From Candidatus Methylacidiphilales bacterium (lineage in GTDB: Bacteria; Verrucomicrobiota; Verrucomicrobiia; Methylacidiphilales; JANWVL01), in NCBI GenBank assembly GCA_025056655.1, contig JANWVL010000073.1, forward strand, positions 1 through 35,354: DNA of 35,354 nt. The letters run 5' to 3'. The notes below the pieces were generated by a model. That model searched no databases. It saw nothing but the letters and a program-made list of their open reading frames with translations, and was not told the DNA's origin. Positions 3,875 through 15,342 of this stretch are shown here, piece by piece. The stretch's first letter is position 1; each line of letters starts with the position of its first letter. Both the position numbers and the translations under genes were made by a program.

Positions 3875-5305
3875 TTAGTAGCGGTAGTGTTCGGGTTTGT
3901 AGGGGCCGTCGATGGGGACGCCGATGTAGTCGGCTTGCCGTGGGGTGAGGCGTGTGAGTTTGGCTCCGATTTTTTCGAGGTGGAGGCGTGCGACTTCTTC
4001 GTCGAGTTTTTTGGGGAGGACGTAGACGGCGGGTTTGTAGAGTTCGCGATTTTTCCAGAGGTCGATTTGGGCGAGGACTTGGTTGGTGAAGCTGTTGCTC
4101 ATGACGAAGCTGGGGTGGCCGGTGGCGCAGCCGAGGTTGACGAGGCGTCCTTCGGCGAGGAGGTAGATTTCGTGGCCGTCGGGGAAGGTGTATTTGTCGA
4201 CTTGTGGTTTGATGTTGGTTTTGCGGATGCCGGGGTAGGCGTTGAGGCGGTCGACTTGGATTTCGTTGTCGAAGTGGCCGATGTTGCAGACGATGGCTTG
4301 GTCTTTCATGCGGAGCATGTGGTCGAGGGTGATGACGTCTACGTTGCCAGTGGCGGTGACGTAGATGTCGCCGCGGCCGAGGGTGTCTTCGACGGTGGTG
4401 ACTTCGTAGCCTTCCATGGCGGCTTGGAGGGCGTTGATGGGGTCGATTTCGGTGATGATGACGCGGGCGCCTTGGCCGCGGAGGGATTGGGCGCAGCCTT
4501 TGCCGACATCGCCGTAGCCGCAGACGACGGCGACTTTGCCGGCGATCATGACGTCCATGGCTCGGTTGAGGCCGTCGATGAGGGAGTGGCGGCAGCCGTA
4601 GAGGTTGTCGAATTTGGATTTGGTGACGGAGTCGTTGACGTTGTAGGCGGGGACGAGGAGTTTGCCCTCGGCTTGGAGGCGGTAGAGGCGGTGGACGCCG
4701 GTGGTGGTTTCTTCGGAGACGCCTTTCCATTCGCGGACGATTTCGTGGAAGACGTAGGGGTTTTCGGCGTGGATGCGTTTGAGGAGGTTTTTGATGATTT
4801 GTTCTTCTTGGCTTTCGGATGGGGAATGGACCCAGGGGTCGCCTTCTTCCATTTGGTAGCCTTTGTGGAGGAGGAGGGTGACGTCGCCGCCGTCATCGAC
4901 GACGAGTTGGGGGCCTTGGCCTTGGGGGTTGTAGATGGCGCGCCAGGTGCAGTCCCAGTATTCTTCGAGGGTCTCGCCTTTCCAGGCAAAGACGGGGATG
5001 CCGCGTGCGGCGATGGCTGCAGCGGCGTGGTCTTGGGTGGAGAAGATGTTGCAGGATGCCCAGCGGACGGTGGCGCCTAGCTCGACAAGGGTCTCGATGA
5101 GGACGGCAGTCTGGATAGTCATGTGGAGAGAGCCGGTGATGCGGACGCCTGCGAGGGGTTTTTGTGGGGCGTATTTTTCACGGACGGCCATGAGGCCGGG
5201 CATTTCGTGTTCGGCAATGGTGATTTCTTTGCGGCCCCATTCGGCTAGGGAGAGGTCGCGAACTTTGTAGTCTTGGTGGATGGGGGATTTGAGGGTGGTG
5301 GACAT
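3875..5305 (-). CDS. ahcY: Adenosylhomocysteinase (S-adenosylhomocysteine hydrolase)
   Basis: The 476-residue cytoplasmic enzyme reversibly splits S-adenosylhomocysteine into adenosine and homocysteine and so removes the product inhibitor of methyltransferases. Family features are seen end to end: [17 protein letters not shown] at the N-terminus, [14 protein letters not shown], the NAD-binding loop [19 protein letters not shown], and the family-typical C-terminus KPEHYRY. It follows metK on the same strand after 87 bp, forming a methyl-cycle pair. Its codons end overwhelmingly in C or G, unlike metK next to it, which suggests high expression or a separate history. The 87-bp spacer shows no recognisable SAH riboswitch. 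Confidence 0.97.
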
Positions 5306-5392
5306 AGGCTTGTGGGTGGTTTTTGTTTTTGGTGTTTTTTTTGGAAGGTGTCTTGCAGGGTGTGAGTCTGGAGGGGTTTGTGGTTAGGTAGT

Positions 5393-6577
5393 TTAATTGA
5401 GGCCAGTAGCGGCTCGAAGTGCTTCGACCTTATCGATGCGCTCCCAGGTGAGGGCATCCAGGTTGTCTTCGCGGCCGAAATGGCCGTAGTTGGTGGTAAA
5501 GGAATAGATGGGGCGGAGGAGGTTGAGCTGGCGGATGATGTTGGCAGGTTTGAAGCTGAAGACTTCGCGGACGGCGGCTTCGATTTTTTCATCGGGGATT
5601 TTTCCTGTGCCGAAGGTATCTACGCAGATGGAAACAGGCTCGGGATAGCCGATGGCGTAGGCGAATTGGACTTCGGCGCGATCGGCTAGACCAGCGGCAA
5701 CGATGTTTTTGGCGACGTATCGTCCCATGTAGGCTGCGCTGCGATCGACTTTGGTGGGATCTTTGCCGCTGAAAGCCCCGCCACCGTGTCGCCCCATGCC
5801 GCCGTAGGTGTCTACGATGATTTTGCGGCCAGTGAGACCGCTGTCGCCCTCTGGCCCTCCGATGACGAAGCGCCCAGTGGGGTTCACGAGGAAACGTGTT
5901 TTGTTATCGATCAATTCAGCAGGGATGACTTGCGGGATAAGTTCATTTACAACGAAGTCGTAGATTTGGGAGTGCTTGATTTCTGGGGCGTGTTGGGTGG
6001 AGACCACGATGGCGTCGATCCGAATAGGGCGGTAACCTTCGTATTGAACGGAGACCTGCGTCTTGGAGTCGGGACGGATCCAGGTGGAGGGATTTTGTTT
6101 ACGGATTTCTGTGAGGCGGCGACCGATGCGATGGGCAAAGACGATGGGAGCAGGCATGAGCTCGGGGGTTTCATTGCAGGCAAAACCAAACATGAGGCCT
6201 TGATCGCCGGCGCCTTGTTCGGCGGTAGCTTTTCCTTCGGCCTGGCGTTCGTCGACACCTTGTGCAATATCGGGGCTTTGCGGTGTGAGGGCGTTAAGGA
6301 CATGGACACGATCGGCATGGAATATGTCGCCTTCGTAGCAGTAACCGATGCGGCGGATGGCTTGGCGAACGATTTCGACATAATCTATCTTGGCTTTAGT
6401 CGTGATCTCACCGGCGACAACGACGAGGTTGCTTTTGACTAATGTTTCACATGCCACACGGCTCAGTGGGTCTTGAGCAAGGCAAGCGTCGAGCACGGCA
6501 TCCGATATTGTATCTGCGACTTTGTCCGGATGCCCTTCTGTAACGGATTCAGATGAGAAGATATACTTTTTTGACAT
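5393..6577 (-). CDS. metK: S-adenosylmethionine synthetase
   Basis: MetK makes S-adenosylmethionine from methionine and ATP. The 394-residue protein has the normal length and the family signatures: [20 protein letters not shown] at the N-terminus, [16 protein letters not shown] in the first third, and the phosphate loop [19 protein letters not shown]. The ATG at 6577 is the natural family start, with no strong ribosome binding site. It is transcribed divergently from the ArsR-methyltransferase regulator. The palindrome at 6628-6651 lies 50-75 bases upstream of its start, so joint control by that regulator is likely. Confidence 0.97.
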
Positions 6578-6627
6578 ACAGCCATCATTACGGTAACTGC
6601 TCTTTATAGCCCGTCAAGGATTATTCC

Positions 6628-6651
6628 ATTGTCATATCATGATAAAACAAT
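6628..6651. promoter_or_regulatory. 24-bp palindromic operator between metK and the ArsR-type regulator
   Basis: The site has a perfect 10-bp palindromic core TATCATGATA (6635-6644). It is flanked, after two non-matching bases on each side, by the inverted arms ATTGT (6628-6632) and ACAAT (6647-6651). Dyads of this size are typical of dimeric ArsR-family HTH proteins. It is the only strong dyad I see in the metK/regulator spacer. I infer that it binds the adjacent regulator; this is not proven by sequence. Confidence 0.7.
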
Positions 6652-6657
6652 TTAATT
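6629..6657 (+). promoter_or_regulatory. Candidate sigma-70 promoter of the ArsR-type regulator
   Basis: TTGTCA (6629-6634, five of six matches to the -35 consensus) is followed by a 17-base spacer and TTAATT (6652-6657) as a weak -10. The palindromic operator fills the spacer, so a bound repressor would block RNA polymerase, as expected for autoregulation. Confidence 0.5.
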
Positions 6658-6691
6658 AGTGAGCCCCTGTCTCTTTTAACCACTCCGCATC

Positions 6692-7639
6692 ATGTCCCTT
6701 CCATCTACACAACTTCAAAAAATCTGGCATCTGCTTTCCGACATCACGCGGCTACGGCTGTATGGCATTCTCAGTCGCGAAGAGCTTTCAGTGGCAGAAA
6801 TACAGCAAGTGCTCGGCCAATCTCAGTCCACAATTTCCAATCATCTGGCGTTGATGCGGCAAACGCAACTCGTAGAATCCCGCCGTCAAGGAAAACACAT
6901 ATATTACAAAGCAGAAAAAAACCTAGATCCTGTGGCTCAGGCGGTAACCCAAGCCGCTATGGAAATGTATCAGGCGCTGCCTGAGGCGCAGCGAGATCAA
7001 GCTGCACTCCAAGTTATCTTGCGACAACGCCAGCAGGCTGCACAAAATTTCTTTAACAAAATCGCCGGAAAGATGGGGGAAATCCCTTGCCCTGGCCGCT
7101 CTTGGCAAGCTGTGGGGCCTTTGCTAGCGCAACTCGTTCCCGACGATCTAGTCATAGCTGATTTGGGAGCAGGCGAAGGTTGGCTATCGCAACTCCTCGC
7201 ACAAAGAGCAAAAAAAGTGATTGCCGTTGATATTTCTCCTAAGATGATCGCCGTAGGCCAAGCCGAAACTCGAGCTCACGGGATTAAAAATTTAGAGTTT
7301 CGCCAAGGCGATATCGTAGCGCCCCCGATTGCCGCACGCTCTGTAGACATCGTATTGCTCAGCCAAGCCCTCCACCATGTGCCTAGCCCCCCACAAGCAA
7401 TCGCAGCGGCTTTCAAAATCCTAAAACCTAAAGGCCGCATCTTGATCCTTGACCTTATGGAACATCACGTAGATCAAGCCCGCGAGCTTTATGGCGACTA
7501 TTGGCTGGGGTTTAAGCCCACCGATCTTCACCTTTGGCTTAGAGAAATCGGTTACACAAAAATTTTAATCCAACTACTCGAACCCGAAAATGTCCCGCCT
7601 CATTTTCAACCGATACTAGCAGTTGCAAATAAACCGTGA
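6692..7639 (+). CDS. ArsR-family HTH regulator fused to a SAM-methyltransferase-like domain (SahR-like)
   Basis: The 315-residue protein begins with an ArsR winged helix (about residues 8-75: LLSDITRLRLYGIL, then LSVAEIQQVLGQSQSTISNH, then the wing GKHIYY). A linker leads to a class I methyltransferase fold (about 140-270) with the SAM loop DLGAGEGWLSQLL (157-169), the acidic residue D180 (AVDISPKM) and LLSQALHHV. Genes of this build near metK and ahcY are known in Proteobacteria as SahR, whose second domain senses SAH or SAM rather than acting as an ordinary methylase. Here it is divergent from metK-ahcY with a palindrome in between, so the same role is likely. An ArsM-like or other methyltransferase role is the alternative. 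The ATG at 6692 has no clear Shine-Dalgarno sequence. Confidence 0.85.
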   Translation: MSLPSTQLQKIWHLLSDITRLRLYGILSREELSVAEIQQVLGQSQSTISNHLALMRQTQLVESRRQGKHIYYKAEKNLDPVAQAVTQAAMEMYQALPEAQRDQAALQVILRQRQQAAQNFFNKIAGKMGEIPCPGRSWQAVGPLLAQLVPDDLVIADLGAGEGWLSQLLAQRAKKVIAVDISPKMIAVGQAETRAHGIKNLEFRQGDIVAPPIAARSVDIVLLSQALHHVPSPPQAIAAAFKILKPKGRILILDLMEHHVDQARELYGDYWLGFKPTDLHLWLREIGYTKILIQLLEPENVPPHFQPILAVANKP

Positions 7640-7820
7640 TAATAATTCCTTAATTGAACGAGTATCTATATTTATTTCGTTAATTTTTAATGCTTTGCTG
7701 CCTATTGCTAGAATTGAATAAATTAGTGAAAATGAGCGATTGTAATTTGCATACACTATAATTTAACTTAAAAAAATACTTGATAAATCAGTTAAAATTT
7801 GCTCGTATTATTGAATAAGA
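7640..7820. other. AT-rich leader region before the giant surface-protein gene
   Basis: This 181-bp stretch is clearly richer in A and T than the surrounding genes. A perfect TATAAT lies at 7757-7762, 58 bases before the ATG at 7821, but no good -35 sits 16-18 bases upstream of it. No RNA gene or coding frame is visible. Confidence 0.35.
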
Positions 7821-7880
7821 ATGAAAATAAGCATTAAATTATCACTAGTATTTGGGGCTATTTCAGCGATTGTAATCACA

Positions 7881-9460
7881 ACAACTCATGCACTGCCTTA
7901 TCGGGAATGGGCTACTTACTTTGGAGGAATAGCCAGTGAAACGCCAAACGCTATAGCAACCGATCAAGAAGGTAATATCTATGTGGTATGATCAACTTCC
8001 AGCCAAAATCAGATTGCAGGTGCTGGAGCGATAAAACAAAATTGGGAAACTGGAGACAGTATTATAGGGTTTATAGCCAAATTGAACCCGAATACAGGTC
8101 AGGTGGTATGGAGCACCTACTTTGGTGCAGAAAACACCATCCTCAGCGGTGTCTCGGTCTATGGTGATGACCTATTCGTGTCAGGAATCTTTTCGAACAG
8201 TTCAAATTCTTCAACATCGTTTCAAAGATTTGTAACTACTGGGGTCCACAAATCACAACCTTATTCAACCAATCCACAAAATCCGCTCGCAGATCGTGAC
8301 GATGCGTTTTTAGCGAAAATAAATTCAAATTCCGGGTCCATCATCTGGTCTACACGTTTCGGAGGCATCAATTTTTCCACACCAAATAACCTGTCCGAAT
8401 ATGATGCAGCGCGAGGAAACTTGACAAACGATTTAACTGTCGACGTCCACGGCAATCCTATTATCACAGGAACAACAAATTCAAGAGAAATTGGAACGAC
8501 CCCTGGGGCATACATAGATAAATTATCAACAAATAACACAATTAATCAAACTTATGTTGCAAAATTTAATAATTCCGACGGAAAGTTGTAGTGGGCGACA
8601 TATGTTCCTGGAAGTGCCCACTACAATTCGATTACAAGCGATCGCCTTGGTGATATCTACATTGGAGGAACCTTAAACCCAACATCGAGTGACATTTTTT
8701 ACCAGACATTAGCAACTCCAGGAACAGAACTAGATAGCTTCCAAAAATTATCCTCGGGCGGCTCACAAGCAGACAGGGGATATATTCTAAAACTATCTGG
8801 ATTTTTCGGAAATAGAATTTGGGGAACTTATTTCCCTGGAGTAGTGCGTGACATAAAGACAGATGATCAAAATAACATATACATCGTTGGACAAACCGCT
8901 TGTGGCGACCCGATCTGTAATAAAGCTATCCCATTTGCCACACCAGACGTAGAACAAACCAAGTTTGGCGGATACTTTGACGCTTTTTATTGCGAAGTAT
9001 TCCGGATCAACCGGAACCAAAGTTTGGGCTACTTATTTCGGTGTCGGTAACGCAGAAACATTTACAAGTCTGGATATCGACAATGAACTATATGTGTATG
9101 TAACAGGAAGTTACACCAAAAGCTCATCTACCATAAACGATTCGGTCTTGATCTCACCGGGTGCCTTTATCAGCCATACTAATTTCTCAAATATCTCTTC
9201 GTCCATGTTAGCGAAGTTTGATGGTTTCACTGGCAAGCGCGTTTGGAGCACATTGATATGGGGGGTTCCTGATTTAGAGGTAACTTCGAGTTTTGTGCCC
9301 CGCACTCAATCTAGAAGACCTATTGCTCTGGCAAATGATGGCTCCATATACGTTGCTACTGTCATGACTAACCACAACTCAAATGCGGTCACACCAAATA
9401 CCCACAAAACCTTATTAGAAAGCGATGAGGTTCTTTTGACTAAATTTTCGGAATATCTCT
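7881..9460 (+). repeat. N-terminal SBBP propeller: seven degenerate blade repeats, broken by stops and frameshift
   Basis: Seven blade signatures of the form W-(A/S/G)-T-Y-F can be followed near 7906 (EWATYFGG), 8106 (VWSTYFGA), 8340 (IWSTRFGG), 8589 (stop then WATYVPG), 8818 (IWGTYFPG), 9022 (VWATYFGVG) and 9241 (VWSTLIWG). Most are followed by a D-x-x-G/N-x-I-Y-V-x-G strand. All three disrupting lesions of the giant gene lie here. The DNA is markedly less C-rich than the C-terminal propeller. Confidence 0.7.
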
Positions 9461-9479
9461 TAGACGCATCTCAAGCACC

Positions 9480-12400
9480 ACAATGCGCTACTGTTGGCAG
9501 CACTGCAAATTACGCCCTCCGCACGCAAACAATACCAATTTGTTCGCCAGTTTTGCTCAACGTCGAGAACTTACCAGAGGGATTAAATTTTAATTCAAGC
9601 AATAACACGGTTACCGGCACTTACTCCAAGGCAGGCATTTACGAAGTTATAGTCAGAGCACAGAATGGTTGTGGCAAAACAATCACCCGCAAATTCACTA
9701 CTCGTGTGGGCTCGGGTAGTTTGACACTGCCAACTACTCTACCTAACGCTAGTGGCATAGCAAATATGCCGCTTAATTACACTATTTCCGGAGCAAATAC
9801 AAATGATGCTTATCAGCCAATCACTTTCACTGCTACTGGATTACCTCAAGGTTTAAGAATTTCTCCTACAGGTGAAATCAGCGGCACTCCAACGCAGCAG
9901 GGTAACTTCACTGCTACTATCACTGCAAGAGATCAATGCAATAACACGGTCACCCGCACTCTTAACATCAACATTACAGGCTTCGTTCCATGCGAACCTA
10001 GTAACTTAGCTCCAAAGGCAACCGGATCCTGTCTATCCATAGATCTAGACTGGTCTCCTACAGCCACATGTCAAAGTAACGACTACCTCGCAATCCAATA
10101 CAAAAGAGCTAACGATATCAGTTGGATAGATGTTCCTACTCACCTACGCCCTCTTATTACAGATAAAAAGTTCACCCTAGATAACCTATCTAATACATCA
10201 TACTACATCAGACTTGCTACTGTCAAAGGAAGTCAAAACGGCACTGTGAGTCAATATTACAATATCTCCGGAAATATGAATGGCGTGGGAGTCTCTCTCC
10301 TCCCAATAGAAGTCAAATGCCCACAAATCACTTTTCAAAACGGTATTTACCCAAGCCCGCAAATAATTTACGGCTACGTAGGATCACAAATCACGCCTTT
10401 CAAAGCAAATCCCTATAACGTCCACCCCAAATGCATACCAGTCACTTTTAGCACTACCTCCAGTCTACCTAGCGGCTTAAATCTTAATCCACAGACCGGC
10501 GAAATCACCGGTATACCAACCACCGTAGGTTTCTTCAGCATATCAAACATTACAGCCAAAGATAGTTGCGGTAGTCAAATCACAAGCATACCCATCAAGG
10601 TTAACATTCTTCCCGCAAACGCTCGCCCACAACTCGATCCTTACCCTCAACCCACAGTGATCGTTACGCAAAACGCCTTCAACGCCACCAACATACCTGC
10701 ACCTAGAACCACAATCTACGATACGTGTAAATCAAATATAAAATGGACTGCCACAGGTTTACCCCCAGGCCTAACAATAAACCCCCAGAACGGCCAAATA
10801 ACAGGTGCAGCTACGACTCTGGGCGATTACCCCGTTACAGTAACTGTCACAGACGGTTGCGGCGCAAGTGCAACCCAAAACCTTCTCATACAAGTCTTCC
10901 CACCATGCACAGCACCCAATCTTAACTTCACAGCCACAAGCACAGGCTGCAACTCCATCAAAATTAACTGGAAACCCCTCCCCACCTGCAACCAAAACAC
11001 CACTATAACTATAGCTCATCGCCCATCAGATAACACAAACCCCATCGGCTGGTCTCATGTCCCAGAAAATACGCTTCCAAAAGTGTCCGCAGGCACTTTC
11101 ACCCTCACAGGAACCGAAGCCAATAAACCTAACGACCTCTCCATAACCATCAAAGATGGACTCACGGGAAACTTCACCCATACCACTATACCGAACATAC
11201 CCCCTATCCCTTGCCCGCCACCCGTCATTCCGAAGCTACTTTACGGCAATGACCCTATCAACATCACCCATAACACCCACACGACCCTTACCCCGAGCAA
11301 CATACAAGTCACCTCTGACTGTGAGCCTGTCACCTGGGAAATCTCCAACCCACCCCCTGGCCTCACTATAATCAGCTCAAACGGAACCATCACGGGAAAC
11401 GCCACCCAAGTTGCCAACTACACTAGCAAAATCACTATCAAAGATAAGTGTGGCAACACCACATCAACCGACGTGAGAATCTCTGTCTCCTATCCCCCAC
11501 TGGAAATCCCAAACATACCTTCATCACTCCCATATGCTGTTATAGGAGAACCATACCAGGGTTACACACCCCCCACCGCGGTTCCCAAAAGTTCTTCATG
11601 TTCCCAAATAACTTGGTCTGCCACTGGACTCCCTGCAGGTATGACAATCAATCCTCAGTCGGGGCATATCAGTGGAACACCTCTACCCTCAAATTCAATC
11701 GGCTTCAAAAATGTAAAAATATGCATTCAAAATAACTGCAACCAATCCTCTTGCACAGACACGCAAATTATCATCATCCCACAAATCACACCCCCTGTCG
11801 CTCCTCAAATCCCCTCTGAACTTCCATCGGGATTTGTCTCTGTCCCATATGTTGGTTACACACCACCCGCTCCACAGGTCAACGAATACTGCCAGCCTGT
11901 AACCTGGAATATCATCGGCTTACCTCCATCACTATCATATGATATAAACACTGGCAAGATATTAGGAACCCCATCCTCGGCTACCAGTGGGGCTGTCTCG
12001 GTCACCTTCTGCATCACCGATGCCTGCAACCAGACCGTGTGCTCTCCCGGATCATCACTGACCATCCTCCAACCACCCGGACCGAAAGCCCCCTCCCTCC
12101 CCGAATACCTACCACCTGGTATCGCCGGATTCGATTATGCCGGATTCACCCCATCCTCAGCAGAATTGGGGCATCAGAACTGTAGCCCAATCACATGGGA
12201 TATCACCGGTCTTCCAGAAGGACTCAATTTTAACCCCCAAACCAGCAGAATCTCAGGCAAACCCACAGCGCCCACCTCTGGTGCCCGCACCTTAAGATTT
12301 TGCATCACCGATAAATGTGGCAACACCGCATGTAGTGATACAAAAATTATCATCGACCCGACCCCCGTTCTCACGCCCCCGAACATCCCCTCCGTGCTAC

Positions 12401-13630
12401 CATCGGGCGACGTCGGTTCCCATTACCGCTATACACCTCCGCCTCTCAATTCCCACCCGAACTGCAGCCCTGTCTATTGGAACGTCTTCGGCCTTCCACC
12501 TGGCCTACAGTTTGACCAATTCACAGGTGTCATCTCAGGCATTCCATCGACTGCCACATCCACTCCAGCCACAATCATGATTTGCGCCTGGGATCAATGC
12601 AATAACAACGAATGCACCTCCACCACCCTCTCCATCCACTCAACACCTCCACCCATACTACCCTCCATTCCACCAACGTTACCCGAAGCCCAAGCTGGCC
12701 GCCCCTATTCCGGTTACACCTTCCAACAAGCCGTCACTCATCCTAACTGTTCCGCCTCGTCATGGTCTGTAATTGGCTTACCTCAAGGCTTAAACTTCAA
12801 CCCCAACACTCGCACAATCTCAGGCACCCCACTCCGGCCAACTACTACCCCGGCCACAATAAACATCTGCGTCACCGATTCCTGTAACCAAACCACCTGT
12901 GAAACCACATCCATAACAGTCAACCCAGACCCCGACTCTAATACCACAAACTCGATTACAACATTCACATCAACCAACAACTACACCTCACCACCCAGCC
13001 AGCAAAATACCAACCCCTCTCCCTCCACATCGACCACACCTATCGCATCGCCCTCCACTCCATCCCACCCTCCCACCTCATCTGGCCCGACGCCCCCCAC
13101 CATTCCCATACTCCCTAAATCCCTACCCTCAGGCAACGTCGGCGCCAAATACATCGGATTCACACCTCCACCAGTCACCTACGACCCATCATGCCAGCCT
13201 CTCACATGGAACATCTCAGGACTACCTAAAGGCCTAAATTTTGACCCCACCACTGGCACCATATTCGGCACCCCCCAAATACCCACATCAGGCCCAAAAC
13301 AACTCATTTACACCGTTTATGACGGATGCGGTCACTCCATATCCGCAATTACCCAGATAACCATAAACAATCCCACAGACTCCCCACAAACCACCCCGCT
13401 ACCCAACAACCAACTACAAGCCATGGCCAACGAGCCAATAACACACCAATTTACCGCCACAAACTCACCAAGCCAATTTTTCGCCCTTGGAACATTACCA
13501 GGAACGATCAACATCAGCCCTAGCGGACTACTCACAGGTCAAATCCCCACTCCAGGCTCCTACCCCATCAGCATACAGGCCACAAACGGCACCCCTAGCC
13601 CCATCTACACCTTCACCATCGTCGTCTCAG
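9480..13630 (+). repeat. Array of about twelve He_PIG-type Ig units with two Fn3-like inserts
   Basis: Units share the motif G-L-P-x-G-L-x-(I/F)-(N/S)-x-x-(T/S)-G-x-(I/V)-(S/T)-G-x-P, seen around 9560, 9840, 10450, 10750, 11340, 11620, 11910, 12200, 12480, 12760, 13210 and 13480. From about 11490 to 13380 six units with a G-Y/F-T-P-P style opening recur; the first five form a regular tandem run of about 285-290 bp each. Most of these units carry four cysteines in a fixed pattern (C-x-P-(I/V)-T-W, then C-I-T-D-x-C-N-x-T-x-C), which suggests disulfides in an exported stalk. Fn3-like segments lie near 9990-10300 and 10900-11220. Confidence 0.75.
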
Positions 13631-13980
13631 CGCCTCAACCTCAGACTCAGCCCTCAATACCATCACCGTCACAAAACACCCCACCACCCACACCCCCTGC
13701 CGCCACCACCCCTCCTCAGCCTCCCTCCTCTCAGACACCGCCACCGCCTTCTGATCCTGTCACGACTACATTGCCTACCTCCGCCCCATCAACCATATCC
13801 ACTCATACCCTACACAATTCCACCCCCTCTACCACTCCAACTTCTACCCCACCCACGCCTCCCAAAACACTCAATCAAAGCCCCTCCACCCCTAGTCTCA
13901 CCCAGACCGCCAGCCCACCTCAAACCAACTCCCAACCCACCCCCTCCACACCCTCCCCATCAACCAATACCACCGACTCA
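13627..13980 (+). repeat. Pro/Thr/Ser-rich low-complexity linker
   Basis: About 118 codons are almost only Pro, Thr, Ser, Gln and Asn, between the last Ig unit and the C-terminal propeller. A shorter linker of the same kind lies at about 12925-13095. Such segments act as extended, often glycosylated spacers in surface proteins. Confidence 0.75.
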
Positions 13981-13989
13981 ACCATCCAC

Positions 13990-15342
13990 CTCTGCTGGGC
14001 CACCTACTACGGCGGCAACGAAAAAGACACCATCACCTCCGTCACCACCGACTCAAACGGCAACCTCTACATCACAGGAACCACCAACTCACCCACAAAC
14101 ATCGCCACTAGCGGCACACACAAAAATACCTACAGCGGAGCAGACCACGATGCCTTCGTCGCAAAATTTGACAACAAAGGAAAACGCCTATGGGCAACAT
14201 ACATCGGCGGTGCCGGCGATGACCAAGGCCTAAGCATCACTCACAACCCACAAGGAGACATCTACGTCTCCGGCTCCACCACCTCCAATGAAATTGCCCT
14301 CAACGGCTTTAACAACACCTACGGCGGCAACGGCGTCAATGACGCATTCCTAGCAAGACTTGACGAAAACCAAGGAAAACTCATCTGGCTAACCTACTAC
14401 GGCGGCCCGCAACGCGACGACGCAACAGCCGTCTCAACCGACCCCACTGGCCACATCCTCCTCACCGGCCGCACCCACTCCAACACCGGCATCTCCTCAC
14501 CCGGTGCCCTTCAAACCAACAAAAACAAAACCACCGACGCATTCATAGCCAAATTCACATCACAAGGTGCCCGCCTCTGGGGCACATACTTCGGTGGCGA
14601 ATCTACCGATATCGCCCACAGCATAGCAGCAGACTCAAAAGGAAACATCATCATCGTCGGCGAAACCACAACCCAAAACAACCTCATGCCCTCAGGATAC
14701 CAAAATACCTTCGGCGGCGGCATATACGACGGCTTCATCCTTTCCATCAACCCCGAGGGCAACTCCATCAACTGGCGCACCTACATCGGCGGCCCAGGAA
14801 ACGACTGGCTCCACACCGTCACCATTGATTCGGCAGACTCCGTCATCGTCGCTGGACGCACCTCCTCCAAGTCCGCCATCACTAAATCCGCCTCCCAAAA
14901 CACATACGGAGGGGGCGCCTTCGATGCAATCATCGCCAAATTCGACTCAAAAGGAAACCTCACATGGTCAACCTATTACGGCGGTAAAGGTAACGACATC
15001 GCATTCGGTATAACCACAGACACCTCCGACAACCTCTACATTGCCGGACAAACCACATCCCGCGACAACATCGCCCAAAACGGCGTCCGCAACAGAAAAT
15101 CAGGCAAGATAGATGCATTCCTAGTCAAACTCTCTCCATCCGGCTCACGCCTATGGGGCACATACTACGGTCGACTACAAGACGATCAAGGCTTCGCTGT
15201 CGCCACAGACCCCCTAGGCAACATCTATCTCGTCGGACAAACTCAATCCACAGGCACAGAAACAACTTCACCTCACCAAGCCACATACGCAGCCGGAGAA
15301 GCTGACGGGTTCATCGCATGCTACAACACAAATTGCAACTAA
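13990..15342 (+). repeat. C-terminal SBBP propeller: seven intact blade repeats
   Basis: Seven consecutive repeats of about 60-65 residues start with C/L/I/N/T-W-x-T-Y-(Y/F/I)-G: CWATYYGGNEKD, LWATYIGGAGDD, IWLTYYGGPQRD, LWGTYFGGESTD, NWRTYIGGPGND, TWSTYYGGKGND and LWGTYYGRLQDD. Each continues with a D-x-x-G-N-(L/I)-Y-(I/V)-x-G strand and a D-A-F-(I/V)-(A/V)-K strand. Seven repeats match one closed seven-bladed propeller. The frame ends GFIACYNTNCN with no recognisable sorting or anchoring signal. Confidence 0.85.

Follow-up and report, generated by a model that had tools for sequence, protein, structure and literature searches.

Regulators of the SahR type combine an ArsR domain with a methyltransferase domain, and in Desulfovibrio and rhizobia their targets are drawn from metK, ahcY, metH and metF in addition to sahR itself. 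Published reconstructions of the SahR and SamR regulons concern the Proteobacteria (PMC4239095). In Desulfovibrio, SahR binds operators of the SAM cycle according to the level of S-adenosylhomocysteine (SAH), and autoregulation of sahR is supported by data from Ensifer (PMC8877191, PMC4239095). The characterised SahR is a repressor (PMC8877191), and its box is a long (20-bp) palindrome with ATC-N10-GAT (PMC4239095). SamR of the Xanthomonadales, a SahR homologue of ~30% identity, has a 24-bp palindrome and metK and metH as targets, and is proposed to be a SAM sensor (PMC4239095). A literature search returned no paper joining Verrucomicrobia, methionine, the ArsR family and S-adenosylhomocysteine. 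The SahR-type regulator and predicted operator described below are outside the published proteobacterial range.

The window, which is the whole stretch of 35,354 nt that was analysed, comes from a member of the Verrucomicrobiota, order Methylacidiphilales, and the relatives with names that were found by sequence are Verrucomicrobia, including Methylacidimicrobium and Candidatus Methylacidiphilales. The metK and ahcY genes are on the same strand with ahcY 87 nt downstream, an order that is kept in relatives, and the two probably form one transcription unit. A gene for a 315 aa fusion protein is divergent from this pair across a spacer of 114 nt, an arrangement described in the earlier note, which had proposed a SahR-like control module. 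On the sequence evidence set out here, this gene very probably encodes a SahR-family regulator of the SAM cycle with the dyad in the spacer as its operator, and it is referred to as sahR. The features of the locus are listed in Table 1.

Table 1. Features of the sahR-metK-ahcY region, with positions in the window.
Feature	Position	Strand	Basis or remark
SahR-type regulator gene	6692..7639	+	family matches, conserved residues, model, fold
Candidate operator, 24-bp dyad ATTGTCATATCATGATAAAACAAT	6628..6651	.	sequence, matrix score, uniqueness
Perfect 10-bp centre TATCATGATA	6635..6644	.	equals the TATC-NN-GATA centre of the class-wide consensus
metK, S-adenosylmethionine synthetase	5393..6577	-	TIGR01034, 549 bits
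ahcY, S-adenosylhomocysteinase	3875..5305	-	TIGR00936, 627 bits
Candidate sahR promoter TTGTCA-N16-TTTAAT	6629..6656	+	overlaps dyad; seen by eye
Candidate metK -35, TTGACG	6612..6617	-	10 nt beyond box edge; putative function

Two other parts of the window are of separate interest. A beta-propeller-like (SBBP-type) gene (7821-9020, +) has an in-frame TGA at 7989 and then a later stop, and a 2125-aa ORF with He_PIG/SBBP repeats is found at 8965-15342 in another frame; the broken SBBP-type gene reflects either a pseudogene or assembly errors. The segment 15658-27052 (+) predicts a cytochrome c7-type protein, an NrfD-type membrane protein, cytochrome oxidase subunit I and a cytochrome c, a respiratory cluster that is consistent with an alternative complex III and a terminal oxidase.

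Family profiles match both domains of the fusion, as the earlier note had described it: an ArsR HTH in residues 9-76 (NF033788, 7e-21) and a class-I methyltransferase domain in residues 152-256 (PF13847/PF08241, 1e-22), with linker helices between the ArsR/SmtB winged helix and the methyltransferase domain. In an alignment of 27 relatives the SAM motif D157-G159-G161-G163 is invariant, indicating an intact SAM/SAH-binding motif, and LHH 227-229, H258 and W271-G273-F274 are also kept. Alphaproteobacterial and Leptospira SahR homologues also commonly have D157, the three glycines, H258, R264 and L272-G273-F274, so that the D157-G-G-G motif and H258...R264...LGF are shared with SahR of a different phylum, although overall identity to the alphaproteobacterial and Leptospira proteins is only ~30%. 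The assignment to SahR is based on these conserved positions together with the gene neighbourhood and the operator, which are common to proteobacterial and Leptospira SahR. The predicted structure (pLDDT 89, pTM 0.67) finds SAH- or SAM-bound methyltransferases as fold matches with modest whole-chain TM. The top match is Rv2258c with SAH (PDB 5f8e; 17% identity, whole-chain TM 0.46), although nothing marks Rv2258c as a regulator.

The earlier note had reported a perfect 10-bp dyad with outer inverted arms, 50-75 bases from the metK start, and both details hold. Outer arms ATTGT/ACAAT (5 bp) extend TATCATGATA to a 24-bp dyad with 10/12 pairs, and the start codon of metK is 51-74 nt away. The 10-bp centre is the sole copy in the window when up to one mismatch is allowed. 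A search of the whole genome by sequence patterns found the full dyad to be unique at 0-1 mismatches and four occurrences of the bare 10-mer. As a palindrome alone the element is moderately unusual (p ~0.007 against dinucleotide shuffles of the spacer). However, a matrix from 28 unique sites of relatives, none from the window's genome, gives the dyad scores of 22.0 and 18.7 on its two strands (p ~2e-9 per position), and the next non-overlapping site on both strands of the 35 kb scores 0.0. ATC-N10-GAT is present in most boxes of relatives in the order, whereas the right half of the window dyad is AAT, not GAT.

Within the order, an orthologue of the fusion protein was found in 51 of the 60 genomes, with full-length matches of ~48-56% identity. 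In most families TTGAY-NYATC-NNGATA-NNNN-GAT or a near form is upstream of the orthologue, in the sahR-metK spacer, and the dyad is therefore not missing from the spacer of relatives, an outcome that the earlier note had named as contrary to its proposal. The strict box pattern with at most one mismatch was found in 43/60 genomes and a reversed-pattern control in none. When each family in turn was left out of the matrix, the box was still found in families f1, f2, f4, f5, f6, f7 and most of f9, but most f8 genomes, with a drifted sequence, gave a weak box. In f3 a gene is inserted between sahR and metK and the box has stayed by metK. In f9 genomes with sahR elsewhere, the metK box is at an unchanged distance and scores 18-32.

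Boxes are also associated with other methyl-cycle genes. In three genus groups the second sites that recur are all at metH, either 23-98 nt before it or, in one case, overlapping its called start, and metH boxes are also present in f2 and f5; metH of f3, f7 and genome G024 was scanned and has no box. In two genomes with no metH match, G012 and G007, metE is preceded by a box that starts 58 and 70 nt, respectively, from the gene, and that of G012, ATTTGCATATTATGATATACAAAT, closely resembles the window dyad. Four single hits of the box pattern in order genomes fall in unrelated sequence. The search suggested by the earlier note thus located the box upstream of metK, metH and metE in relatives, including metK not linked to sahR.

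In the window's own genome, no match to metH and no TIGR00676-type metF was found, and metE has no box upstream. A pattern-based, non-exhaustive search of this genome gave a box scoring 21.6, where 0.02 are expected per genome at a GC content of 53%, within the 35 nt that immediately precede a stand-alone MTHFR gene (L185:1495-2423, contig C32), a metF with a match of 4.9e-19, just outside the TIGR00676 cut-off. Homologous MTHFR sequences in relatives are mostly the end of a ~610-aa frame, the length of a homocysteine-methyltransferase/MTHFR; none of the 28 loci of these genes has a box (best 10.6), and they double as a negative control. Of the core genes of the SahR regulon (sahR, metK, ahcY, metH and metF), boxes are present at sahR/metK-ahcY and metF in this genome and at metH in relatives. 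A further site in contig C19 (score 21.7) was set aside; it falls between ORFs, and the contig is AT-rich and looks like a contaminant. Contigs C19, C65 and C14 (L181, L177 and L179) are AT-rich with ORFs unlike the rest, and may represent bin contamination.

The proposal that this lineage uses the logic of SahR is supported but was framed too narrowly, as the module spans much of the Verrucomicrobiota. A match to the fusion protein is present in 143 of 388 genomes of the phylum (E <= 1e-35), and metK-upstream sites in its other orders yield the symmetric consensus TATCAACnTATCnnGATAnGTTGATA. The conserved element, a putative operator, is this dyad of ~26 bp with TATCATGATA as its centre. A class-wide matrix, trained on 11 metK-upstream sites from other orders of Verrucomicrobiota only, ranked the sahR box first in 9 of 10 alphaproteobacterial or Leptospira loci (per-position p 9e-9 to 3e-4), and its best hit was the metH box in all 8 Methylacidiphilales metH loci tested. 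At the window dyad it scores only 9.7/8.3, near an unrelated 8.9, and support for the window dyad consequently comes from its own order. Several families of the class have sahR without an adjacent metK and without a detectable box of its own. A sequence titled Bacteroidetes (L046, CAJCII010000090.1) encodes a protein fragment that shares 65% identity with the fusion protein of the window, and is probably a mislabelled verrucomicrobial bin.

Gene arrangements differ between phyla. The alphaproteobacterial loci are sahR-metF where annotated, some with metH, whereas the window gene is divergent from metK rather than upstream of metF, and the verrucomicrobial box is extended to ~26 bp with a TATC-NN-GATA centre. 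The Leptospira homologue (L066, Leptospira interrogans p1; 32% identity over 91% of the query) has the same fusion build but is in an operon, sahR-ahcY-metH (4899-10867), not a divergent pair, and a perfect 20-bp palindrome, ATATCAAGATATCTTGATAT, is found 27 nt upstream of it.

By analogy with SahR, the ArsR winged helix would bind as a dimer to the dyad of 24-26 bp between sahR and metK, and the methyltransferase domain would act as a sensor for SAH or SAM. At low SAH the apo-protein on the box would limit transcription. A build-up of SAH would lead to its binding by the methyltransferase domain and release of the brake, and hence to increased hydrolysis of SAH and regeneration of SAM. The box may also provide for autoregulation of sahR. 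SAH is favoured over SAM as the effector because ahcY is in the metK unit. A variant in which the same gene and box respond to SAM, as product feedback on synthesis, is possible but rather unlikely. It is suggested by SamR, a proposed SAM sensor with a 24-bp palindrome and with metK and metH as targets (PMC4239095), given that the dyad in the window likewise spans 24 bp and that metK is the closest target. However, the argument for SAM in SamR rested on ahcY being outside the regulon, whereas in the window ahcY is directly behind metK and would be co-transcribed with it, and the Leptospira homologue also has ahcY in its operon.

The position of the box relative to the two promoters bears on how a SahR-type regulator would act on metK. 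The earlier note had placed the dyad exactly between the -35 and -10 of a candidate sahR promoter. The elements (TTGTCA, 6629-6634, and TTTAAT, 6651-6656) are visible by eye but were not reported by a strict sigma-70 scan, and this promoter call over the dyad is weak; TTGAC at the -35 position is conserved in many relatives. On the metK side, a TTG is found 3-13 nt beyond the box edge in 34 of 38 metK promoters, compared with 22% in shuffles, though these are related sequences and not independent. This TTG is mostly inside CTTGC or ATTGC, and some promoters have TATTTT ~16-17 nt further on. As the box is upstream of the likely metK -35, plain occlusion of metK is not assured and a dual regulator is possible. 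Activators usually bind just upstream of the -35, and a factor that represses its own gene and activates metK from this site has a low but appreciable probability. Against this, the -10 is poorly conserved among metK promoters, and repression is the mode of action described for the characterised SahR (PMC8877191). More specifically, a dual regulator in Verrucomicrobiota that turns off its own promoter and activates metK-ahcY, with SAH as the switch, is tentative and on present evidence unlikely. Were it correct, the wiring would be unlike that of the repressor described in Proteobacteria.

The regulator, its predicted box and methyl-cycle targets are kept as a set, and where the regulator is missing the box is missing too. 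In genus g11 of the Methylacidiphilales, probably Methylacidiphilum, the near-complete genomes G013, G019, G023, G027 and G038 are without the regulator and the metK box is absent in 5/5; three genomes of this genus without the protein have a metK box score of at most -6. Across the class, no convincing box precedes metK in 16 genomes without the regulator (best 9.2, rest <=2.0). Where the protein is present, metK boxes in five genomes from f14, f16 and f22 score 11.9-21.5. In six f11 genomes, ATCAACGCATC-NN-GATT or a near form abuts the metK start, truncated by the edge of the scan. The lineages without both (g11, f16 g40, one f14, part of f11, and f26) look separate. This joint absence argues against the dyad belonging to another factor or an RNA element, with the fusion an ordinary methyltransferase that adjoins metK by chance. 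The gene is indeed not beside metK in several families of the class, but the same type of box precedes sahR in Proteobacteria and Leptospira, and no riboswitch or other Rfam family was found in the window or target loci, making this explanation very improbable.

An arsenic-responsive fusion of the ArsR/ArsM type, either a metalloregulator or an arsenite methylase, might be suspected from the NF033788 match and from a sub-threshold match of the methyltransferase domain to arsenite methyltransferases, but is hardly credible given that the protein has one cysteine compared with 5-12 in four ArsM, no ars genes are among the identified neighbours, the targets are methyl-cycle genes, and ArsM form their own clade (100/100) in a tree of 38 proteins, a forced union with the Methylacidiphilales proteins being marginally rejected (p 0.047). 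A grouping with arsenic methylases, which would have spoken against the earlier note, was therefore not seen. The phylogeny it had called for sets ArsM apart; among the SahR-like groups that the tree covers, from Verrucomicrobiota, Leptospira and Alphaproteobacteria, it gives no clear deeper branching order.

The occurrence of a SahR-type regulator, its predicted operator and its targets across much of the Verrucomicrobiota, together with the Leptospira homologue, points to control of the methyl cycle by this system in several phyla. Natural losses, such as that in g11, supply contrasts for the study of methyl-cycle regulation, and the regulation of metK, metH and metF in a poorly studied phylum gains a testable model.
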